Assembly: GCF_003014735.1 (NCBI RefSeq)
Contig: NZ_PYAX01000018.1
Span: 62,001-126,000, forward strand
DNA length: 64,000 bases
Direction of reading: 5' to 3'
Source: Saccharothrix carnea
GTDB lineage: Bacteria; Actinomycetota; Actinomycetes; Mycobacteriales; Pseudonocardiaceae
Position 1 is the first letter of the stretch. Every line of letters starts with the position of its first letter. The position numbers and the translations under genes were made by a program. The notes under the pieces are model-generated. The model did no database searches. It was not told where the DNA came from and saw only the letters and a program-made list of their open reading frames with translations. Below are positions 14,894 to 25,962 of the stretch, piece by piece.

Positions 14894-16312
14894 CGGCGCG
14901 GTCAGCGGCAGGTGGACCCGGAAGCGGGTGTCACCGGGCTCGGAGTCCACGCGGATGTCGCCGTGGTGGCGGTCGACCACGATCCGCCACGAGATGTCCA
15001 GCCCGAGCCCGGTGCCCTCGCCGACCGCCTTGGTGGTGAAGAACGGTTCGAAGATGCGCCCCTTCACCTCCGCCGGGATGCCCGCGCCGGTGTCGGCGAC
15101 CTCCACCACCAGGTCGTCACCGGCGCGGGACGTGCGGACGGTCAGCGTGCCGTCGCCCTCCATCGCGGCCACGGCGTTGTCCACCAGGTTCGTCCACACC
15201 TGGTTGAGCTCGGCCGGGTAGGCGGGCAGCGGCGGCAGGGAGCGGTCGTAGTCCTTGACCACGCGCACGCCGTCGCCGAGCTTGCCGCCGAGCATCACGA
15301 GCGTGGAGTCGAGCAGTTCGTGCACGTCGACCACCTGGTACGGCGCCCGGTCGACCTGCGAGTACTGCTTGGCCGCGCCGACCAGCGTGGACACCCTGGT
15401 GGTGGCGTCCTCGATCTCGTTCATCAACGTCTCGGTCTCGACCGTGTAGGCCAGCCAGCGCACGGCGGCCTCGGTGGCGGTCTGCGGGCACACCGCCGCC
15501 GCCCGGTCCAGCCACTCGACGTCGAGCCCGCCCGCGACCAGCACGGGCGCCAGGTCCCACCCTCCCGCCACGCCGTGCGCGTCCAGCCAGTCGGCGACCT
15601 CGTCCTCCAGGTCGGCGGTCTGCATCGGACCCAGCTTCGGCGCCTTCGCCACCTGCTCGACCGCGCTCTCCTGCAGCTCCACCAAGACCGGCAGGGTGGC
15701 CGGGTCGATCGAACCGCTCGCCAGCAGCGCCAGCTTGTGCCGCATCCCGGCCACCCGCTCGCGCAGCGCGCCGGTGGCCCGCACCGCCGCCGCGGCCGGG
15801 TTGTTCAGCTCGTGGGTCAGCCCGGCCGACAGCGAGCCGAGCGCGAGCAGCCGTTCCCGCTGGCTGACGATCCGCTCGGTGTTGCGCATGCCGAAGAACA
15901 GGCCCTCCAGCAGGTGGATCGCCATCGGGAACCACGAGCGGAACATCGCGCCGAAGTCGTGCGCGGGCAACTGGTACAGCCGCAGGTCGGTCACCGCGTC
16001 GGCGGTCATCTGGTAAACCGTCCTGGCCTCCGCGTCGGCGCCGAGGTAAGCCTGGGTGGCACCGAAGTACGCGCCGCGGTGGTCGGTTCGGTTGGTCTCC
16101 ACGCGCTGGCCGCCGATGACGCGGCTGAGCGCGACCGTGCCGTCCAGCAGCACGAAGAAGCACGTCGCGGGCTGCCCTTCGCGCAACACCTGCGTGCCGG
16201 CCGCGTGCGTCTCGACCTGGCCGTGCGCGACGAGCCACGCCAGCTGGTCCTCCGAGAGGTGCTCGAACAGGAACAGGCCGCGCAGGTCGTCGACCGTCAG
16301 GTTCTCCATCAC
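14849..16312 (-). CDS. Histidine kinase with N-terminal cyclic-nucleotide-binding domain
   Basis: The 487-residue soluble sensor has a cNMP-binding-like domain in residues about 1-135 (LREGQPATCFFVLLDGTVALSR). Next come a phospho-acceptor helix (SAGLTHELNNPAAAA) and an HATPase module with N box (NQVWTNLVDNAVAAME), G1 (ADTGAGIP), F box (IFEPFFTTK) and G2 (GEGTGLGLD). No membrane segment is seen, so it should sense a cytosolic signal. The start is GTG 16312 (overlap GTGA) or ATG 16309 (overlap TGATG) with the stop of the upstream response-regulator fusion, so the two are co-translated and should form a cognate pair. The 3' end overlaps the convergent glycosidase-like gene by 45 bp. Confidence 0.85.
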   Translation of the reverse strand: MMENLTVDDLRGLFLFEHLSEDQLAWLVAHGQVETHAAGTQVLREGQPATCFFVLLDGTVALSRVIGGQRVETNRTDHRGAYFGATQAYLGADAEARTVYQMTADAVTDLRLYQLPAHDFGAMFRSWFPMAIHLLEGLFFGMRNTERIVSQRERLLALGSLSAGLTHELNNPAAAAVRATGALRERVAGMRHKLALLASGSIDPATLPVLVELQESAVEQVAKAPKLGPMQTADLEDEVADWLDAHGVAGGWDLAPVLVAGGLDVEWLDRAAAVCPQTATEAAVRWLAYTVETETLMNEIEDATTRVSTLVGAAKQYSQVDRAPYQVVDVHELLDSTLVMLGGKLGDGVRVVKDYDRSLPPLPAYPAELNQVWTNLVDNAVAAMEGDGTLTVRTSRAGDDLVVEVADTGAGIPAEVKGRIFEPFFTTKAVGEGTGLGLDISWRIVVDRHHGDIRVDSEPGDTRFRVHLPLTAPSAGLAEDGAGGAGQ

Positions 16313-17988
16313 GACCTCTCCAGGTAGCGGTGCACCAGTGACACGGCCATCGCGCCGTCGCCGACCGCCGAGGCGACCCGCTTCACCGAGTCGGCGCGCA
16401 CGTCACCGGCCACGAACACGCCCGGCACGCTCGTCTCCAGGTGGTAGGGCGGCCGGTCGAGGTCCCAGCCCTCGGGCAGCCGGCCGGCGGTGACCAGGTC
16501 CGGTCCGGCGAGCACGAACCCGCGCTCGTCACGGGCCAGTGTGCCCGCGAGCCAGTCGGTGTGCGGCGCGGCGCCGATGAACGCGAACAGCCACGACGTC
16601 GGCACGGTCGTCGTCTCGCCGGTCTTGGTGTGCCGCAAAGTCAGGGTCTCCAGGTGCTCCTCCCCCGTGCCGCCGACGACCTCGGTGCACGTGCGCACCT
16701 CGATGTTGTCCACCCGGGCGAGCTGCTCGACCAGGTAGTGCGACATGGACGTGGCCGGCGAGTCGCCGCGCACCACCAGCACGACGCGGCGGGCGTGCGC
16801 GGCGAAGTACAGCGCCGCCTGGCCCGCCGAGTTGGCGCCGCCGACCAGGTAGACGTCCTGGCCCGCGCAGCCGGGTCCTTCGGTGGTGGCCGCGCCGTAG
16901 AACACGCCCCGCCCGGTCAGCCGGTCGAGACCAGGCGCGTCCAGCCTGCGGTAGGACACGCCGGTGGCGAGGACGACGGTGTGCGCGGCCAGCTCGGTGC
17001 CGTCGCCCAGCCGCACCACCCGCGCCGCGCCGCGTGCCTCCAGGCCGACCACGTCGCACGCGGTCAGCACCTCGACGTCGAACTTCAGCGCCTGTCTGCG
17101 GGCCCGGTCGGTCAACTGCTCGCCGGACACGCCGTCCGGGAAGCCGAGGTAGTTCTCGATCCGGCTGCTGGTGCCCGCCTGGCCGCCGGTGGCGCGGCGC
17201 TCGACCAGCACCGTCCGCAGCCCTTCCGACCCGCCGTAGACCGCCGCGCCCAGCCCGGCCGGGCCGCCGCCGACCACGATCAGGTCGTAGAAGTCGGTGG
17301 ACGGCCGCGTGGCCAGGCCGACCCGGGCGGCCAGCTCCGCGTCCGATGGCTCGACCAGCGTCTCGCCGTCCGCGGTGATGACGACGGGCAGCCGCACGCC
17401 GTCCTCGCCGCACGCGGTGAGCAGCCGCCCGGCCTCGGTGTCGCCGTCGTCCAGCGCGTGCCAGCGGAACGGCACGGAGTTGCGGGCCAGGAAGTCGCGC
17501 ACCTCGTAGGACCGCGACGACCACCGGTGCCCGACGACCCGGACCTGCCGGACGGGCCCGCGGTCGGCCGACACCCAGGCGCGCAACAGGTCGTCCAGCA
17601 CCGGGTACAGCTTCTCCTCCGGCGGGTCCCACGGTTTGAGCAGGTAGTGGTCGAGGTCGACGACGTTGATCGCGCGGATCGCCGCGTCGGTGTCGGCGTA
17701 CGCGGTGAGCAGCACCCGCCGTGCCGCGGGGAACAGGTCCATCGCGGCCTCCAGGAACTCGATGCCGCTCATGCCCGGCATCCGGTAGTCGGCCAGCAGC
17801 ACCGCCACCTCCTCGCCGCGCAGCTTGATCTCGCGCACCGCGTCGAGCGCCTGCGCACCGGACTCGGCCCGCACGATCCGGTAGTCCTCGCCGTACTTGC
17901 GGCGCAGGTCGCGCGCCACGGACCGGGACACGCCCGGGTCGTCGTCCACGGTCAGGATCGAGGGCCTCGCGACCTGAGGTGTCGTCAT
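16309..17988 (-). CDS. Response regulator fused to thioredoxin-reductase-like flavoprotein
   Basis: The 559-residue protein starts at ATG 17988. Residues 1-125 are a REC domain with the phospho-acceptor at D67 (VAVLLADYRM) and a conserved Lys in YLLKPWD. Residues about 135-215 resemble a glutaredoxin-like fold (RQVRVVGHRWSSRSYEVRDF) without its cysteines. The rest is a two-nucleotide-binding flavoprotein of the thioredoxin reductase family, with FAD motif IVVGGGPAGLGAA and NADPH motif VYLVGGANSAGQAA. Where TrxR carries CATC this protein has AATT (YGAATTEGPGC), so the classic disulfide centre is absent. It probably uses the REC domain to gate an NAD(P)H-dependent flavin reaction rather than DNA binding. 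It is coupled to the cNMP-domain kinase downstream. Confidence 0.85.
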   Translation of the reverse strand: MTTPQVARPSILTVDDDPGVSRSVARDLRRKYGEDYRIVRAESGAQALDAVREIKLRGEEVAVLLADYRMPGMSGIEFLEAAMDLFPAARRVLLTAYADTDAAIRAINVVDLDHYLLKPWDPPEEKLYPVLDDLLRAWVSADRGPVRQVRVVGHRWSSRSYEVRDFLARNSVPFRWHALDDGDTEAGRLLTACGEDGVRLPVVITADGETLVEPSDAELAARVGLATRPSTDFYDLIVVGGGPAGLGAAVYGGSEGLRTVLVERRATGGQAGTSSRIENYLGFPDGVSGEQLTDRARRQALKFDVEVLTACDVVGLEARGAARVVRLGDGTELAAHTVVLATGVSYRRLDAPGLDRLTGRGVFYGAATTEGPGCAGQDVYLVGGANSAGQAALYFAAHARRVVLVVRGDSPATSMSHYLVEQLARVDNIEVRTCTEVVGGTGEEHLETLTLRHTKTGETTTVPTSWLFAFIGAAPHTDWLAGTLARDERGFVLAGPDLVTAGRLPEGWDLDRPPYHLETSVPGVFVAGDVRADSVKRVASAVGDGAMAVSLVHRYLERS

Positions 17989-18144
17989 GTCCACATTGAA
18001 CCAGTGGCCGGCACCCATTCGCGTTGCCGATGGGTCGGCGCCGGCGCACCCGCAGCGCCGGTCGTGCGAACGTGCCGCCACGTCGGTGTTCACCACCGTT
18101 AACCCCTGGTATATCGGGAGGTCCTGCCCGCGAAGGGGTGTCGG

Positions 18145-18918
18145 ATGGCGGTCTTGGTGCTGGGCCGGCCGGTGGTGCGGACCGGCGGGGTGCCGCGCCA
18201 CCCGACGCGGCGGATGACGCGGATCCTGCTGGGCGTGCTGGCGTTGCGGGCCAACCGCGCGTTGTCGCTGGAGTGGGTGGTCGAGGCGCTGTGGCCCAAC
18301 CGTCCACCGGCGTCGGCCGCGGCGAACGTGCGCACCCACATCGCCGACCTGCGCGGGCTGTTGCGCGCGGCCGGGCAGGGCCGGCCGGCCATCGTCACCT
18401 CGCGCGAGGGGTACGTGTTGGTCGCACCGCCGGACGGCGTGGACGTGACGCTGTTCCAACGGCTCCTGGCCGAGGCGCACGAGTTGCGCGGCCGTGGCGA
18501 GGCGATCGCGGCGGCCGGGTGCCTGGCCCGCGCCGTCGCCCTGTGGCGGGGTCCGGTGATGGCCGGTGTGCCGGTGCCCGAGGCCGTCCGGCCCGACGTG
18601 ACGGTGCTGGACGAGCAGCGGATCGGCGCGATCGAGGACCTCGTCGGCGTGCGGCTCGCGCTCGGGCTGCACGACGGGCTGGTGGCCGCGCTGGCCGGGC
18701 TGGTGGTCGAGCACCCGTTGCGGGAACGGCTCTGGCGGCACCTGGTCGCCGCGCTGGCCGCCGAGGGCCGCCGCACCGAGGCCGTCGCGGTCTACCGGCG
18801 GCTGGTCGCGGTGCTCGACGCCGAACTCGGTGTCCCGCCGAGCGCGGACACGATCGCGCTGTACGAGTCCGTTCGGCGCAACGACCCGGCCGCCTCGGAA
18901 CCGGGTGGGCAGAACTGA
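18145..18918 (+). CDS. SARP-family transcriptional regulator
   Basis: The 257-residue protein starts at ATG 18145 with AAGGGG six bases upstream. Residues about 1-90 are an OmpR-like winged helix (LALRANRALSLEWVVEALWP, then AANVRTHIADLRGLL and REGYVLVAP). Residues about 95-245 are a bacterial transcriptional activation domain (VDVTLFQRLLAEAHELRGRG, PLRERLWRHLVAALAAEGRR, AVYRRLVAVLDAELGVPPS). SARPs of this short type usually switch on nearby natural-product genes from promoters with direct repeats. The lanthipeptide precursor starts 83 bp downstream and is preceded by such repeats, so this is the likely pathway activator. Confidence 0.85.
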   Translation: MAVLVLGRPVVRTGGVPRHPTRRMTRILLGVLALRANRALSLEWVVEALWPNRPPASAAANVRTHIADLRGLLRAAGQGRPAIVTSREGYVLVAPPDGVDVTLFQRLLAEAHELRGRGEAIAAAGCLARAVALWRGPVMAGVPVPEAVRPDVTVLDEQRIGAIEDLVGVRLALGLHDGLVAALAGLVVEHPLRERLWRHLVAALAAEGRRTEAVAVYRRLVAVLDAELGVPPSADTIALYESVRRNDPAASEPGGQN

Positions 18919-18938
18919 ACGGCGGAACGCCGCTGTTT

Positions 18939-18972
18939 GTGTGCGGGCCCGTGTGCACGGCATTTCTACACT
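18939..18972 (+). promoter_or_regulatory. Candidate SARP-dependent promoter of lanA
   Basis: GTGTGC occurs at 18939-18944 and again at 18951-18956, one helical turn apart (12 bp start to start). A -10-like TACACT follows at 18967-18972. SARP activators typically bind direct repeats spaced by about 11 bp and placed roughly 8 bp before the -10, so the geometry fits. Transcription would start near 18979, leaving a leader of about 20 nt with an AAGGAAGGGAG ribosome site (18986-18996) before the ATG at 19002. Confidence 0.5.
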
Positions 18973-19001
18973 CCTCGCTCCCGCCAAGGAAGGGAGCACC
19001 C

Positions 19002-19193
19002 ATGACCACCGCACTGCTGCTCGAAGCCGAGGAGACGGTGGCGCGCTGGCGCGCCGGTCTCGACGAGTGGGACAACCCGGCCGGTCCGCTGTTCGCCAAC
19101 GGTGAGTTCGCCGAGGGCGACATCGTGGCGTGCAACCCGCCGGGCAGCCGCTGCTCGTCGTGCACGGCGTCCCGTCCGGTGTACTGCTGCTGA
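19002..19193 (+). CDS. lanA: Class II lanthipeptide precursor, mersacidin-like leader
   Basis: A strong ribosome site precedes ATG 19002, giving 63 residues. The acidic leader begins MTTALLLEAEETVARW and contains DNPAGPLF and EGDIVA, resembling the NPAG motif and GDMEAA end of the mersacidin leader. By that analogy cleavage follows residue 43 and the core is CNPPGSRCSSCTASRPVYCC: twenty residues, five Cys, four Ser and one Thr. Up to five thioether rings could form, and a core starting with Cys is shared with mersacidin. The gene ends three bases before the lanM ATG. It is not reported as a free-standing ORF in the usual way because the same frame stays open upstream to 18024, inside the SARP gene, in another reading frame. 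Leader class and core boundary are inference. Confidence 0.82.
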   Translation: MTTALLLEAEETVARWRAGLDEWDNPAGPLFANGEFAEGDIVACNPPGSRCSSCTASRPVYCC

Positions 19194-19196
19194 CCC

Positions 19197-22019
19197 ATGG
19201 CACCCGACGAGGTCGGCGAACTCGACCGAACCCTGGACTGGCTGCTCGGTCCGGCACTGGACCGGCTGGCCCGCGGTGTGGCCGAGGTCGCCGACCTCGG
19301 CGCCGCCGAGGCGGACGCCGTGCTCGACGCCGCCCGTGACGCGCTGCTGGACGCGGTGCGGCGCAAGGTGATCCGCGTGCTCGTGCTGGAGCTCAACGCG
19401 GCGCGGGTGACGGGCAGGCTGGTCGCCGACGACCCGGCCGGCCGGTGGGCGGAATTCCTGGCGCGGGCGGCCGAACCGGCGTTCTGGCAGGACCTGACCC
19501 GCCACTACCCGCACCTGGTGACCCGGCTGCGCACGGTCGTGGCCAACCGGGTGGACGCCGTGCGCGTGATGGCGTCGCGGTTCGCCGCCGACCGGCCCAG
19601 GTTGCGCGAGCTGCTCGGTGCGGAGGCGGGCGAGCTGCGCAAGGTGGAGTTCGGCGCGGGCGACAGCCACCGCGGCGGCCACACCGTCACGCTGCTGCAC
19701 TGCACCGGCGGCACCGTGGTCTACAAGCCGCGCCCGATGCTGGTGGACCATCGGTTGGCCGAGTTCCTCGCCGTGCTGACAGATGGTGACGACGACGCCA
19801 TCCGGGTGCCGCGCGCGGTCGTCGCCGACGACTACGGCTGGGCCGAGCACGTCGTCCACCGGTACTGCGAGACCGACGCCGAGCTGGACGTGTTCTACCG
19901 CAACCTCGGGCACTGGCTGGCGGTGATGCGGCTGGTGTCCGGGACGGACTTGCACGCGGAGAACATCATCGCCTGCGGGCCGGTGCCGGTCGTCGTGGAC
20001 TGCGAGAGCGTGTTCACGCCACGGCCGCCGCACCCGCCGACCGGCGCGGGCGAGGCCACCGACCGGATCGCCGAGCAGCTCAACGGGACCGTGCTGCGAA
20101 CCGGTCTGCTGCCCGGCCGCGGCGCAGGTCTGGGGTGGCGCGGCGTGGACGGCTCGGCCATGGGCGGACTGCCCGGCGAACAGCCCGACATCGGGCTGCC
20201 CGACCTGGTGGGCGCGGGCACGGACACCGCGCGCGTCGCGATCGTGCCGCAGCGGTTGCCGCCGACCCGGAACCTGCCGAGCCCGCAGCCCCGGCTGGCC
20301 CGCCACTGGCCGCGCGTCGTCGCCGGGTTCGACGAGATGGCCGACCGGATCACGCGGTTGGACCGGGCGGGTCGGCTCGCGCCGTTGCTGGCGACGTTCG
20401 CCGACTGCGTGGTGCGGGTGATCGTGCGCGACACCGAGTCGTACACCGAGCTGGCGCGGATGCTGTGGCACCCGGCGGGCCTGCACGACCAGGACGCGGC
20501 CGTGCGCAAGGCGCGCGCGTTGCTCGCCCGGCACTCGATGAACACGCGTGGGCCGGGCGATCCGGACGTGCACGCGGCCGAGGTGGCCGAGCTGCTCGAC
20601 GGCGACATCCCGGTGTTCACCACGACGCCCGCCGAAGGCTGGCTGCACACGCCCGGCGGCCTGGTCTGCGGGCCCCGCGTGGACCAGGTGGAGCTGGCGT
20701 TGGCCAACTGGCGCACCGCCGACCTCGCGCTGGAACGCCGCGTCACGCACGCGGCGTTGGTCAGCGCCTACCTGAACCAGGGGGCGGAACCGGAACTCGG
20801 CCGGATGGCCGTGCCCGCGCCGGACCTGTCCTCTTTGGACTCACGACGACGGGTGCTGGCCGCAGGGCTGATGCGTGAGCTGGCGCAGGAGGCGGTGCGC
20901 GGCGGTGACGGCACGGCCACCTGGTTCGCCCCGATCCTGGACCGCTCCGGGTGGCAGACCACTCCCCTGACACCGGACCTGTACGGCGGAACGTTGGGTG
21001 TCGCCGTGCTGCTCGCGGCCTACCGCCGGGAGGTGGCGGCGGGACGTGCCGACCCGGTGGACGGCGTGTCGGAACTGCTCGACGCGACCGTGCGGACGGC
21101 CGAGTTGACCCAGCGGTGGTGGGCCGCGCAGGCGGAGCACACGCGCCGGAGGCCGGACCCCGTTGGCGGGTACATCGGCCTCGGCTCGCAGATCTGGTGC
21201 TGGCTCACCCTGCACCGGCTGGGGCTGGACTGCCTGGACGACGCGGAATTCCTGGCTGAGCAGATGCCCGCCGCGATCGCCGCGAGCGAGGGACCGGACC
21301 TGGTGGTGGGCACGGCGGGCGCGATCGTGCCGCTGTTGATGCTCGCTTCCCGCACCGGTGAGGCGCGCTGGGTGGATCTCGCGCTGGAAGCGGGCAACCG
21401 GTTGGCCGCGTCGGCGCGCACGGAGGACGGCGTGACTCGATGGGCCGCACCGAACTGGCCCGATGGCATCGGCGGTTTCGCCCACGGTGCGACCGGTATC
21501 GGGTGGGCTTTGGGCAAACTGGCGGCCGTCACCGGCGAGCGCCGGTTCGCGGTGCTGGCGGAGGGCGCGGCGGCGTTCGAGGAGACCTGGTACGACCGGG
21601 AACGCGCCGCGTGGATGGACCCGCGTGAGCCGGACACCGTTGCCGCCGCTTGGTGTCATGGGGCGATCGGCGTCGGCTTGGCGACTGAGGATTCGGACGT
21701 GCTGCGGCGGGCGGCGGCTTCGGGGCTGCGTGACGGTGTCGGTTGGACCCACACCTTGTGCCACGGTGACTTGGGGACGTGGGAGCTGTTGGTGAAGGCT
21801 TTGGATGCCGGGCTGGCGCCTGACGGGCTTGATCGGGCGGCGGTGGATGCGATGGTGATCGGCAGCCTGGAGGCCAATGGGGTGACCACGGGGTTGGCGC
21901 GGGAGGTGTACTCGCCGAGCATCATGTCGGGGTCGGGCGGCATCGCCTACCAACTGCTGCGCCTGCACCCGGACTGCGACCTGCCGTCCGTGCTGCTCCT
22001 GTCGGACGGTCCGTCGTGA
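19197..22019 (+). CDS. lanM: Class II lanthionine synthetase (dehydratase-cyclase)
   Basis: The 940-residue enzyme should dehydrate Ser/Thr of the adjacent precursor and add Cys thiols to form (methyl)lanthionine rings in the cytoplasm. The N-terminal dehydratase half shows KVEFGAGDSHRGGHTV, VVYKPRPM, SGTDLHAENI and VVDCESVF, which form the kinase-like ATP and phosphotransfer centre of LanM enzymes. The C-terminal cyclase half carries the zinc ligands C820 (AWCHG) and C855-H856 (LCHGD). Its length is normal for LanM. The ATG lies three bases after the precursor's stop, so expression is coupled. The next gene on the strand is an ABC exporter, separated by a 600-bp repeat-rich spacer. Confidence 0.95.
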   Translation: MAPDEVGELDRTLDWLLGPALDRLARGVAEVADLGAAEADAVLDAARDALLDAVRRKVIRVLVLELNAARVTGRLVADDPAGRWAEFLARAAEPAFWQDLTRHYPHLVTRLRTVVANRVDAVRVMASRFAADRPRLRELLGAEAGELRKVEFGAGDSHRGGHTVTLLHCTGGTVVYKPRPMLVDHRLAEFLAVLTDGDDDAIRVPRAVVADDYGWAEHVVHRYCETDAELDVFYRNLGHWLAVMRLVSGTDLHAENIIACGPVPVVVDCESVFTPRPPHPPTGAGEATDRIAEQLNGTVLRTGLLPGRGAGLGWRGVDGSAMGGLPGEQPDIGLPDLVGAGTDTARVAIVPQRLPPTRNLPSPQPRLARHWPRVVAGFDEMADRITRLDRAGRLAPLLATFADCVVRVIVRDTESYTELARMLWHPAGLHDQDAAVRKARALLARHSMNTRGPGDPDVHAAEVAELLDGDIPVFTTTPAEGWLHTPGGLVCGPRVDQVELALANWRTADLALERRVTHAALVSAYLNQGAEPELGRMAVPAPDLSSLDSRRRVLAAGLMRELAQEAVRGGDGTATWFAPILDRSGWQTTPLTPDLYGGTLGVAVLLAAYRREVAAGRADPVDGVSELLDATVRTAELTQRWWAAQAEHTRRRPDPVGGYIGLGSQIWCWLTLHRLGLDCLDDAEFLAEQMPAAIAASEGPDLVVGTAGAIVPLLMLASRTGEARWVDLALEAGNRLAASARTEDGVTRWAAPNWPDGIGGFAHGATGIGWALGKLAAVTGERRFAVLAEGAAAFEETWYDRERAAWMDPREPDTVAAAWCHGAIGVGLATEDSDVLRRAAASGLRDGVGWTHTLCHGDLGTWELLVKALDAGLAPDGLDRAAVDAMVIGSLEANGVTTGLAREVYSPSIMSGSGGIAYQLLRLHPDCDLPSVLLLSDGPS

Positions 22020-22042
22020 CCGGCGAAAAGCCTGAAGAGCTT

Positions 22043-22485
22043 TCAAAAGCGTCCTCGCCGGACGGGCAGATCAGCAGGATGACCCCAAATGCCGTCTGGA
22101 TGTCCTGTTGGGTTGGTGGTCCGGACTCCGTGTCATCCCACCGACCTCCCTCCGGGCTACCACACGTGTCAAGGGCGGCGCGGGGGTCGCCGGCGGGCGC
22201 GGGGTCGAGCGGCGCCGGGGCGGGTGCGGCTGCGATGCACTTCCGCTCTTTGCAGAAGTAGGGGTTCGTGTCATCCCGCCGACCTGGCGCAGCCCTACCG
22301 CACGTGTCAAGAGGGCTGGTCCAGCTTTGCCCGCGGCGTCAACTGTGGGCGCCCTCTTGACGCGTGTGGTAGCCCGGAGGGAGGTCGGTGGGATGACACG
22401 AAGCCCGGGACCACGCTGGGTCGGGAGATCCAGGGGTAGTTGGGGTCATCCTGCTGATCTGCCCGTCCGGCGAGGACGCTTTTGA
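22043..22485. repeat. 443-bp element with 46-bp perfect terminal inverted repeats
   Basis: The arms 22043-22088 and 22440-22485 are perfect reverse complements over 46 bp. They start TCAAAAGCGTCCTCGCCGG on the left and end with the reverse complement on the right. Inside them lies a second inverted pair of 45 bp (22129-22173 with 22356-22400, one mismatch) plus a third, diverged direct copy (22269-22311). The element fills most of the gap between lanM and the exporter and contains no plausible ORF. It could be a non-autonomous mobile element (MITE-like), a genome-wide intergenic repeat, or a large RNA hairpin that limits read-through from lanM. I see no clear target-site duplication. Confidence 0.75.
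22129..22400. repeat. Three copies of a 43-45-bp intergenic repeat, two direct and one inverted
   Basis: Copy 1 is 22131-22173 (begins TGTCATCCCACCGACC, ends CACACGTGTCAAG). Copy 2 is 22269-22311 in the same orientation with several changes (TGTCATCCCGCCGACC, CCGCACGTGTCAAG). Copy 3 is 22356-22398 inverted, with one mismatch to copy 1. Copies 2 and 3 also share flanking bases (GTCAAGAGGGC, TTCGTGTCAT) that copy 1 lacks. The mosaic of similarities suggests repeated recombination or conversion between copies rather than one duplication. Confidence 0.75.
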
Positions 22486-22507
22486 TCTTTTGATCTTTTG
22501 ATCTTTT
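22480..22507 (+). repeat. Three tandem TTTTGATC octamers
   Basis: Units start at 22480, 22488 and 22496 and end with a final TTTT at 22504-22507. The first unit overlaps the right arm of the 443-bp element. The tract is AT-rich in otherwise GC-rich DNA. It may be a slippage product at the element border or provide the U-rich part of a terminator for the preceding hairpin. Confidence 0.7.
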
Positions 22508-22616
22508 CGAGCCAAGCCTTGAAGAACGCTTCGCAGGCGTCCCCGCCAGAGGGACCCCTGTTTTCATTCTACCGACCGGGTCCGACAATTCCGGCCGGTC
22601 GCAGCGGGTGGAGGCG

Positions 22617-22691
22617 GCGGTGAGCGGTCCGGCGGTGAGCGGTGAAGCGGTGAGCGGTGAAACGGCAAGCGGTGAAGCGGTGAGCGGGGCG
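22617..22691 (+). repeat. Five tandem 15-bp units at the exporter N-terminus
   Basis: Five 15-bp units of the form GCGGTGAGCGGTGAA run from 22617 to 22691 and encode (A/T)-(V/A)-S-G-x pentapeptides. Units 2 and 3 are identical; the others carry a few changes. The repeat sits at the translation start, so unit number could vary by slippage without breaking the frame. Confidence 0.75.
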
Positions 22692-24596
22692 GCGGCGACC
22701 AAGGCGGCAGAGACCGGGGCGGTGGCGAGCAGCGAAGCGGATCCGCGTGAAGGCGCACTGGTCACACCACACTGGCAGCTCGACGACTCCGCCGCCACCG
22801 CACCCCGCCGCGTCCTGCGCGGCCTGCCCTCGGCCACCTGGCCCGTCCTCCGCCTGATCCGCCGAGCCGCCCCCGGACCGGCCCTGGCCGTGGCCGTGAT
22901 GCAGGTCGTGTCGGGCCTCGCGGCGGCGTTCGGGTTGTTCGCCACGACGGGCGTGCTCACCGAGTTGTTGGCCAGTGGCGCGGCGACCGAACGCGTGCTG
23001 GCCGCGCTGCCCGACCTGCTGCTGGTCGGTGCGGCGTTCGGGTTGCGCGGCGCGATGGACGTCGGAGTCTCGCTGGCCCACGCGCGGATCACGCCGGCGG
23101 TGCGGCGGTTGGCCGAGGAACGGCTGTACGAGGCCAGTCTCGGTGCCGAGCTGGCGGCGTTCGACGACTCCCGGTTCCACGACCGGATGCACCGCGCCCG
23201 TGACCGCGGCCTGTTCTTCCTCGAACGCGCGGCCGACAACCTGGTCGAGTTGATCGGCGCGCTGCTCGGCATCGTCGCCGCGACGGGCAGCCTGGCGATA
23301 CTGCACCCGGTGCTGGTGCCCGTGCTGCTGCTGGCCGTGCTGCCGGACGGGTGGGCGGTGCAGCGGGCGGCGAAGCTGGCCTACGCCAGTGTCGGCCGCA
23401 CGGTGGCGCTCGACCGGCGCGTGCAGATGGTGTCCGACCTCGCCACCGAACGCGAGCCCGCCGCCGAGATCCGCGCCTACCAAGCGGAACCGTTCGTGCT
23501 GCACGAGTACCGGGTGGCGGCGGATCCGTTGCGGGACGAGGACATCCGGCTCGCCACCGCCCAGGCACGCGTCCGCGGTATCGGGCGGGCACTCGCCGGG
23601 CTGGGTCTCGCCCTCACCTACGTCGTGCTGGGCGGCCTGGTCCGGTACGGCTGGGTGCCGCTCGCCGTCGCGGGCACGGCGGTGATCGCGATCCGGGTGG
23701 CGACCACCGCGTTGAACCGGCTGGTGCTGGCCGCCAACCAGCTCGTGGAGCAGGGCCTGTACGTCGCCGACTACCAGGAGTTCCTGGCCTCCGCCGAACG
23801 CTCGCACCGGACCGGCGTCGACACCGCGCTCGACCCGAGCCGGGTGACGCTGGACGGGGTCACGTTCCACTACCCCGGCAGCGACCGCCCGGCCGTGCGG
23901 GACGTCTCGCTGACCGTGCGGCCCGGCGAGACGATCGCCCTGGTCGGCGAGAACGGATCGGGCAAGACCACGCTGGCCAAGCTCGTCGCCGGTCTCTACA
24001 CGCCGACGTCGGGTGAGGTCCGGTGGGCCGACCAGGACATCGCGCTGGTCGACCGGAGCCGCATCGCCGACCGGGTCATGATGGTGTTGCAGGACCCGGT
24101 CCGCTGGCCGCACACCGCCCGGGTGAACGTCGAGGTCGGGCGGCACGACCGGCCGGACCCGGACGGGCTGGCGCTGCTGCGCGCGGCCACCCAGGCGGGC
24201 GCGGACGAGGTGGTCGACCGGCTGCCGGACGGCTGGCACACGTTGCTGTCCAAGCAGTTCCGGGGCGGGGTCGAGCTGTCCGGCGGGCAGTGGCAGCGGC
24301 TCGCCGTCGCCCGCGGGCTCTACCGGGACGCGCCGCTGCTGATCTGGGACGAGCCGACCGCCCCGCTGGACGCCAAGGCCGAGTTCGCCGTGTACGAGTC
24401 GTTGCGCGCGTTGGCCGAGGACCGGACGGTCGTGCTCATCACGCACCGGCTGGCCAGCGTGCGGCACGCGGACCGGATCCTCCTGCTGCACGACGGCGAA
24501 CTCGCCGAAGAGGGCACGCACGCCGAACTGCTCGCGCTGGGCGGCCGGTACGCGGACCTGTACGAGTTGCAGAGCCGGATGTACGCCGATGCTTGA
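22620..24596 (+). CDS. ABC exporter half-transporter of the lanthipeptide locus
   Basis: Start GTG 22620 is chosen because GGAGG lies five bases upstream; GTG 22608 is an in-frame alternative. The 658-residue protein has a 40-residue Ala/Ser/Gly-rich N-terminus made by a 15-bp tandem repeat, a six-helix membrane domain (about 80-370) and an ATPase with Walker A GENGSGKTT, signature LSGGQWQR, Walker B LLIWDEPTAPLD and the switch His in LITHR. There is no C39 peptidase domain, so leader removal must be done by another protein. It probably exports the lanthipeptide or gives self-protection. Its stop overlaps the flavoenzyme start by 8 bp (ATGCTTGA). Confidence 0.88.
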   Translation: MSGPAVSGEAVSGETASGEAVSGAAATKAAETGAVASSEADPREGALVTPHWQLDDSAATAPRRVLRGLPSATWPVLRLIRRAAPGPALAVAVMQVVSGLAAAFGLFATTGVLTELLASGAATERVLAALPDLLLVGAAFGLRGAMDVGVSLAHARITPAVRRLAEERLYEASLGAELAAFDDSRFHDRMHRARDRGLFFLERAADNLVELIGALLGIVAATGSLAILHPVLVPVLLLAVLPDGWAVQRAAKLAYASVGRTVALDRRVQMVSDLATEREPAAEIRAYQAEPFVLHEYRVAADPLRDEDIRLATAQARVRGIGRALAGLGLALTYVVLGGLVRYGWVPLAVAGTAVIAIRVATTALNRLVLAANQLVEQGLYVADYQEFLASAERSHRTGVDTALDPSRVTLDGVTFHYPGSDRPAVRDVSLTVRPGETIALVGENGSGKTTLAKLVAGLYTPTSGEVRWADQDIALVDRSRIADRVMMVLQDPVRWPHTARVNVEVGRHDRPDPDGLALLRAATQAGADEVVDRLPDGWHTLLSKQFRGGVELSGGQWQRLAVARGLYRDAPLLIWDEPTAPLDAKAEFAVYESLRALAEDRTVVLITHRLASVRHADRILLLHDGELAEEGTHAELLALGGRYADLYELQSRMYADA

Positions 24597-25962
24597 CCTG
24601 GTAGCACCGGACGACCCCCGTTACGCGTGGTCCCGCAGCCAGTTCATCGGACGTCCGGACGAGGTGCTGCCGCGCGAGGTGGCCCGGTGCTCCTCGGCCG
24701 CCGACGTGGTCGCCGCGCTCGCCCTGGCGCGGGACCGCGGGTGGCCGTTCGCCGTCCGCGGCGGCGGGCACAGCAACGCCGGCCACTCCAGCACCACCGG
24801 CCTCCTGCTCGACCTCACGCCATCGGACGGGATCTCCGCGGCGGGCGACCTGGTCACGGTCGGCGGCGGTGTCCGGATCGGACGGTTGTCCGAAGCACTC
24901 GCGGCGGTGGGTCGGCTGGTGCCGGTCGGGTCGTGCCCCTCGGTCGGCGTGGTCGGCGCGGCGCTCGGTGGCGGGTTCGGCGGCCACGGTCGCCTGCACG
25001 GGCTGACGTGCGACGCCCTGGTGTCCGCCGAGGTCGTGTTGGCGTCCGGGCAGGTGGTGGAGGCGTCCGACACGGCGCACGCGGACCTGTTCTGGGCGCT
25101 GCGCGGCGCGGGTGGCGGCAACTTCGGCGTGGTCACCCGTGCGACGTTCCGGACCGTGCCCGCCCGACCACGCACCCACCTGCGCCTGGCCTGGGACTTC
25201 CACCACGCCGCGGCGCTCGTCCGGTGGTGGCAGCGGTGGGCGCCCGACGCTGCTGACGACGTGTCGGTGGAACTGGTCGCGCTGTGCCCGGAGTTCCCGG
25301 ACGAGGAGCCGGTGGTGATGCTCGTCGGCGCCGCGCCGAACCGTGCCGCGGTCGACGCGATGCTCGACTCGTTCGGCGTGCCGCCGGCGTCCGCCGAGGT
25401 GGTCGACGTGTCCGCCGCCGACGCCGTGCTGCTGCACGCCACCCCGCACTCGGCCGTCGCCCGCGACCCGGTCGAGATCCCGCTCGTGCACGACCGGCCC
25501 GGCATGTCCACCGCCAAGACCGAGTTCTTCGACCGGCCGCTGCCGGACCACGTGGTGACGGCGCTGCTGGCGCGCTTCGTCGCCGAACGCGCGCACGGTG
25601 AGCTGCGCGAGATCGCCTTCACGCCGTGGCGCGGCGCGTACGGGCGGGTGGCGTCGGACGCCACCGCGTTCGCCCACCGCAGTCCGGCGTTCCTGGTCAA
25701 GCACACCGTCCTGGTGGGCCCGAACGGTGCGGCCCGACGTGGCCGGGAAGTGCTGGACCGGCTCGCCGCCGCGTGGGCCATCGCGCACCCGTGGGGCACG
25801 GGCCGGGTCTACCCGAACTTCCCCGACCCGGCCCAGGTGGACTGGCCGACCGCGTACTACGGGGCCAACCTGTACCGCCTGCGCGCGGTGAAGGCGCGCT
25901 ACGACCCGGACGGCACGTTCACGTTCGCCCAGTCCATCCCGGTCGGGGTCACTCGTCGGTGA
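24589..25962 (+). CDS. FAD-linked oxidase with berberine-bridge-type C-terminus
   Basis: The 457-residue protein has a PCMH-type FAD domain (about 25-200) and a C-terminal BBE segment (YYGANLYRLRAVKARYDPDG). Two residues that bind FAD covalently in bicovalent flavoproteins are present: H61 in RGGGHSNAG and C116 in VGSCPSVGV. Such enzymes oxidise sugars, alcohols or C-N/C-C bonds with O2. There is no obvious signal peptide. Translational coupling to the exporter (8-bp overlap) places it in the lanthipeptide operon, where it could be a tailoring enzyme acting on the peptide; that role is inference. Its last 14 bp overlap the convergent gene on the minus strand. Confidence 0.82.
   Translation: MLDLVAPDDPRYAWSRSQFIGRPDEVLPREVARCSSAADVVAALALARDRGWPFAVRGGGHSNAGHSSTTGLLLDLTPSDGISAAGDLVTVGGGVRIGRLSEALAAVGRLVPVGSCPSVGVVGAALGGGFGGHGRLHGLTCDALVSAEVVLASGQVVEASDTAHADLFWALRGAGGGNFGVVTRATFRTVPARPRTHLRLAWDFHHAAALVRWWQRWAPDAADDVSVELVALCPEFPDEEPVVMLVGAAPNRAAVDAMLDSFGVPPASAEVVDVSAADAVLLHATPHSAVARDPVEIPLVHDRPGMSTAKTEFFDRPLPDHVVTALLARFVAERAHGELREIAFTPWRGAYGRVASDATAFAHRSPAFLVKHTVLVGPNGAARRGREVLDRLAAAWAIAHPWGTGRVYPNFPDPAQVDWPTAYYGANLYRLRAVKARYDPDGTFTFAQSIPVGVTRR

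Follow-up and report, generated by a model that had tools for sequence, protein, structure and literature searches.

DUF6229 peptides have been recognized as class II lanthipeptide precursors since 2022, when the rhodanocins were described (PMC9576775). In that work, the refactored cluster of a DUF6229 precursor from Dyella gave the class II lanthipeptide rhodanocin in E. coli. Its rings were solved by NMR and comprise bridges 6–11, 8–14 and 12–23, in addition to Dhb18, and its authors distinguish, within DUF6229, at least two groups that differ in ring pattern (PMC9576775). Of the 27 unique class II precursors described from Lysobacter, 21 are reported to be DUF6229 members, distributed over six families with apparently different topologies (PMC11451712). 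For mersacidin, the lipid II motif is given as TxTxEC (PMC7268733), and the catalytic residues of CylM and their roles have been described (PMC4550811).

We analyzed a 64-kb stretch of DNA from the soil actinomycete Saccharothrix carnea (the window), to which positions refer unless another locus is named. On its + strand, the gene for a SARP-family transcriptional activator with Trans_reg_C and BTAD domains (18145–18918; Pfam BTAD, 3.2e-38), the likely regulator of the cluster, is followed by lanA (19002–19193), lanM (19197–22019), the gene for an ABC exporter (22608–24596) and the gene for a BBE-type FAD oxidase (24589–25962). The lanA frame translates to MTTALLLEAEETVARWRAGLDEWDNPAGPLFANGEFAEGDIVACNPPGSRCSSCTASRPVYCC (63 codons), has AAGGGAG directly on its 5′ side, and is separated by 3 nt from the start of lanM. 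A preliminary description of this DNA had placed a 63-codon precursor between the SARP gene and lanM, 3 bp ahead of the latter, and had assigned the locus to the class II lanthipeptides; the coordinates were confirmed, and the assignment is borne out by the complete LanM and the DUF6229 precursor. The identities of the genes, the family membership, the catalytic residues and the conservation of operon and core were established at the level of sequence, and we consider it very likely that the whole represents a class II lanthipeptide operon of the DUF6229 (rhodanocin-like) family with the order SARP–lanA–lanM–exporter–oxidase. A search for tRNA across the 64-kb window returned none. In a PADLOC comparison, lanA, lanM and the oxidase were without matches, and the exporter had six, mostly of ATPase type. 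Adjoining the cluster, at 16309–17994 on the – strand, is a gene in which a response-regulator receiver domain is fused to a thioredoxin-reductase-like flavoprotein; among 24 loci compared, only L025 gave a match to this fusion over 60 bits.

The lanA precursor matched the Pfam family DUF6229 (PF19740) over residues 7–63 with E = 9e-23 and a score of 80.4 bits, compared to a curated cut-off of 25, and was the sole PF19740 match in its own genome. The leader corresponds approximately to residues 1–43, with NPAG at 25–28, and the predicted core to residues 44–63, CNPPGSRCSSCTASRPVYCC, the border between the two being a guess. This 20-residue core contains five Cys and five Ser/Thr, the same count as in the preliminary description. 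The E-value, together with a core that is kept in 16 genomes, indicates that the precursor signal is beyond chance. Considering the DUF6229 match and the published DUF6229 lanthipeptides, the family was already known, and judged by its genes the S. carnea locus is a variant within this known but little-studied family. It shares a DUF6229 precursor and a class II synthetase with rhodanocin, the LanII product of Dyella sp. 333MFSha (precursor WP_043693394.1; PMC9576775). Unlike rhodanocin, the S. carnea core is three residues shorter, ends in a double Cys, has a Cys1 and lacks Thr18. The S. carnea operon, with its SARP, exporter and FAD oxidase genes, also differs from the rhodanocin cluster as described, which does not imply that an oxidase is absent from Dyella. 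The Lysobacter peptides, compared by their published description only, share the Pfam family and the class II assignment but differ in their spread over several apparent topologies (PMC11451712).

LanM contains DUF4135 (8.8e-96) and LANC_like (1.1e-31) Pfam domains, scored 528.3 bits against TIGR03897 (cut-off 304), and is homologous in sequence to LicM2 (6st5) and CylM (5dzt). The catalytic and zinc motifs GDSH, YKPR, DLHxEN, VVDCE, R..T, WCHG and LCHG are all present. We compared 13 aligned positions, nine in the dehydratase and four in the cyclase, in 65 LanMs, and found each to be as in S. carnea in 59 to 65 of them. Eight of the nine dehydratase positions were kept in 64 or 65; at the Thr of RDTESY, 59 sequences have Thr and six have Ser. 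Each of the two zinc positions is occupied by Cys in 61 of 65 sequences, the exceptions being L126 and L129 (gaps), L161 and L162. LanM is predicted to carry out both dehydration and thioether formation on the lanA precursor. The S. carnea genome contains a second LanM-like gene (C10:113916-116543, locus L002), the product of which is 36% identical.

In the mechanism that we propose, the SARP would activate lanA, lanM and the exporter and oxidase genes. LanM would bind the leader, phosphorylate and eliminate Ser/Thr residues of the core, and add Cys thiols. The exporter would secrete the peptide, a protease of non-C39 type encoded outside the cluster would remove the leader, and the FAD oxidase would oxidize the peptide at some site. 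An antibacterial role for the product appears fairly likely.

The distribution of PF19740 matches (E ≤ 0.001) was determined in genome samples that overlap and that each include the S. carnea genome or the genome at the center of the sample. At the level of the order, 6 of 397 genomes had a match (5 above the cut-off); the class sample gave 6 in 394 (all 6 above it) and the phylum sample 2 in 296 (1 above it). In the family of S. carnea, matches were found in 23 of 390 genomes, 10 of these being among the 25 of the genus; the family of genome G448 had matches in 36 of 327. Two matches below the cut-off, L008 and L039, were dropped. Named relatives belong to Saccharothrix, Umezawaea, Lentzea, Sphaerisporangium, Nonomuraea, Microbispora, Spongiactinospora and Streptosporangium, and a contig scan gave 14 loci, all from actinomycetes. 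Among viral contigs, 73 stretches matched a pattern and none encoded a precursor relative. The plasmid set yielded one, from Nonomuraea gerenzanensis; its record, at 11.85 Mb, probably represents a chromosome.

Gene order was compared in 66 loci (the S. carnea locus, L015–L024, L062, L063 and L110–L162). These include both L024 and L156, as well as L153 and L154 from one genome; the named loci L025–L038 were not counted a second time. Presence was counted by tblastn (thresholds of 150 bits for LanM, 250 for ABC, 100 for BBE and 60 for SARP), because several genes were overlooked or put in the wrong frame by the GC-based ORF caller. LanM was found downstream of the precursor in 65 of the 66 loci, a count in which L062 and L063, having been found through LanM, provide no free result; the exception was L160, a 5.7 kb contig with a precursor and no LanM. 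An exporter homologue followed LanM in 40 of 66. The flanks 3′ of LanM range from 4 to 6,907 nt in the other loci, so that the absence of a gene near a contig end, as in L147 and L162, is no proof of its loss. In the 16 loci of the clade defined by the S. carnea core, a SARP match lies 5′ of lanA on the same strand in every case, at a distance of 811–865 nt in 15 and of 1854 nt in L121.

Within these 16 genomes or loci, 15 of the 20 core positions show no variation, in a clade where identity to the S. carnea LanM drops to 70%. Compared to three same-genus copies (L025, L026 and L016), the core codons showed a sum of six synonymous and one non-synonymous differences (3 × 20 codons), versus 14 synonymous and 11 non-synonymous in the leader (3 × 43 codons). 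Such strong conservation suggests one target. As new, the core is to be understood relative to the open literature and the genome collections named here, rather than to a lanthipeptide database. Core position 10 is Ala in four of the 16 members, leaving five Cys versus four Ser/Thr. At least one thiol in these relatives should therefore lie outside the thioethers, unless a Ser/Thr of the leader takes part. The preliminary description had proposed the absence of free thiols as a mark of the modified product, which is doubtful in view of the Ala10 relatives. A C-terminal Cys-Cys pair was present in 76 of 78 precursors, and the other two were without any Cys.

Ser6, Cys8, Cys11, Thr12, Ser14 and the final Cys of the S. 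carnea core coincide with the ring positions of rhodanocin, by the positions named in the text rather than by letters, the numbering there being that of an AspN fragment and not of the native core (PMC9576775). When the core was shuffled, the ring residues fell on the fixed positions in 27 of 200,000 shuffles, and the same spacing occurred anywhere in 275 of 200,000. We then considered 57 distinct cores from 76 precursors, a set outside which lie the Cys-free L161 and L162, and counted as Cys8 any Cys three or four residues before Cys11. Position 14 was Ser in 43 of 43 cores with such a Cys and in 6 of 14 without it. The corresponding Fisher p of 1.8e-6 overstates the independence of the cores, since Cys8 was lost in one clade only of the LanM tree. 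For the 6–11 pair, the record of co-variation appears mixed: none of the three Pro11 cores, which belong to one clade, has a Ser/Thr 5–7 residues upstream, whereas the 54 Cys11 cores include six without one and 29 with one located 5 or 6 residues upstream. As each loss of a ring partner is confined to one clade, we consider these patterns supportive, rather than independent proof.

On balance, we lean slightly towards a pattern as in rhodanocin, in which rings would form between Ser6 and Cys11, between Cys8 and Ser14 (closed towards the N-terminal Cys), and from Thr12 to Cys19 or Cys20. Ser9 is predicted to be either Dha or a fourth ring partner, while Ser10 is probably not essential. What is new here is a well-sampled actinobacterial branch of DUF6229 with a ring prediction that can be tested. 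The peptide could instead belong to the same family and have a ring pattern of its own, for example with rings involving Cys1 and Ser9, or with Cys19 and Cys20 both paired. None of Cys1, Ser9, Cys19 and Cys20 varies among the 16 close relatives, the full rhodanocin spacing is present in 18 of 78 precursors and missing from the other 60, and several ring patterns are described within DUF6229 (PMC9576775, PMC11451712). This argues for a separate pattern, but does not explain why five spacing positions match rhodanocin exactly, or why position 14 is relaxed where Cys8 was lost; we regard a separate pattern as quite possible, if short of even chances. A true mersacidin-type lantibiotic that binds lipid II, on the other hand, is very unlikely. 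The preliminary description had called the precursor mersacidin-like, and the locus does share with the mersacidin group a class II LanM, a small core and a leader with NPAG (as quoted there for the mersacidin leader). NPAG, however, occurs in 39 of the 78 precursors of the family set and P[AV]G in all 78, and hence does not point to mersacidin. DUF6229 was the only Pfam match at E ≤ 0.1 and not one NCBIfam model matched at E ≤ 1, so that neither search gave a mersacidin-type family model, of which these libraries may contain none. Since the core has no Glu, TxTxEC is impossible there; the ring map differs in the DUF6229 member with a solved product, and the S. carnea exporter lacks a C39 peptidase. 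The mersacidin label, being without support, was set aside on the grounds of the DUF6229 match and the missing TxTxEC, which also removes an unsupported lipid II hypothesis.

The oxidase has FAD_binding_4 (PF01565, 1.1e-27) and BBE (PF08031, 4.2e-15) domains, and its solved relatives are BBE-like proteins, including EncM, glucooligosaccharide oxidase and berberine bridge enzyme. In all 10 oxidases that were aligned, out of 31, the GGHS His and the GxCPxVG Cys are conserved; these are presumably the residues that bind FAD covalently in the BBE family. The S. carnea protein thus shares the domains and attachment residues of BBE/EncM-type enzymes, but is encoded inside a lanthipeptide operon. The stretch delimited in the preliminary description did end with this gene, although the reasoning given there passed over it. 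Across the family, 31 of 66 loci (tblastn) have the oxidase, each time after the exporter and in the same orientation; no locus has it without an exporter. On the LanM tree, a quick tree of 64 rows in which 10 of 61 inner branches are open and from which L024 was omitted as a near-duplicate of L156, these loci fall on five separate parts, requiring 5 changes by parsimony. As 35 loci lack an oxidase, the enzyme is not a general requirement of the family. FAD-dependent oxidoreductase genes are described in class IV lanthipeptide clusters, and LanD and luciferase-like proteins are listed among other flavoenzymes in lanthipeptide clusters (PMC7268733). In the part of the open-access literature that we covered, no paper was apparent on a BBE-type FAD oxidase acting on a lanthipeptide.

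The exporter gene may start at GTG 22620, which is preceded by GGAGG, or at GTG 22608. Its product matched ABC_tran (Pfam, 5.2e-31) and not Peptidase_C39, in agreement with the preliminary description, which had noted an exporter without a leader peptidase domain and had placed the protease elsewhere. A Peptidase_C39 profile search of the whole S. carnea genome at E ≤ 0.001 gave no match, while the same search was positive in 8 of 14 control genomes, and there is no double-glycine in the leader before the predicted core. The leader protease therefore probably belongs to another type and is encoded outside the cluster. The space between lanM and the exporter gene is occupied by a multi-copy palindromic repeat (22020–22600, right border not fixed) with inverted arms at 22043–22093/22435–22485 and 22121–22173/22356–22408. 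This repeat family gave 108 matches in the S. carnea genome, which we grouped into 32 places including this one. Every one of the 25 genomes of the genus, S. carnea among them, contained matches, some being weak (E near 5e-4). L025, L026 and L016 have no such insert, and their exporter follows directly after lanM. Because the repeat separates the exporter from lanM, export may be altered in this strain.

Both the oxidase and the repeat could be accounted for in other ways. The oxidase might be a neighbor that serves a different purpose, such as acting on a small molecule, and leave the peptide unmodified; EncM, glucooligosaccharide oxidase and berberine bridge enzyme act on small molecules, and more than half of the DUF6229 loci (35 of 66) manage without the gene. 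Against this, its start overlaps the exporter stop by 8 bp, and the arrangement recurs in 31 loci over five separate parts of the LanM tree. We consider such a separate task possible, on the doubtful side, and action of the oxidase on the peptide reasonably probable; the gene would then be a candidate flavin tailoring enzyme that travels with a DUF6229 cluster, which is also new. The strongly conserved core and the flavin oxidase gene attached to the cluster suggest that the peptide receives an additional chemical modification, as yet undescribed. If so, the oxidase may oxidize or crosslink the spare Cys of the Ala10 relatives or the C-terminal Cys-Cys pair, and thioethers would occur together with oxidized or cross-linked sulfur or a dehydrogenated backbone in one lanthipeptide. 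That the enzyme introduces a modification new to lanthipeptides is nevertheless rather unlikely in our estimation. The repeat, in turn, might signify that the locus is decaying in S. carnea, the exporter having been parted from lanM by an element with 32 locations in the genome: 592 nt lie between the lanM and exporter matches, compared to a distance of –49 to 180 nt in the clade's remaining 15 loci. Yet the lanA, lanM, exporter and oxidase frames are all open, the core is unchanged, and a GGAGG precedes GTG 22620. We consider decay improbable.

Two relatives of the family have unusual precursors. At L161:7176-7697 (reverse complement) and L162:8136-8678, the DUF6229 leader continues into a Cys-free tail made up of NTR repeats, and LanM follows. 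The L161 and L162 precursors contain 19 and 23 NTR and 32 and 34 Thr, respectively, and no Cys. Their LanMs keep the nine dehydratase residues that were checked, but have lost the zinc-ligand Cys, with WCHG changed to WAYG in both; LCHG is changed to LAHG in L161, while the L162 sequence is cut off before that site. Precursor and enzyme seem to have lost cyclization together, and this dehydration-only relative is predicted to produce dehydrobutyrine-rich peptides. Within the portion of the open literature that was covered, we found nothing on Cys-free NTR-tail DUF6229 precursors with a dehydration-only LanM. A different elaboration is seen at L159:8031-9775, where seven tandem DUF6229 precursors with different cores are followed by one LanM, an exporter and an FAD oxidase.
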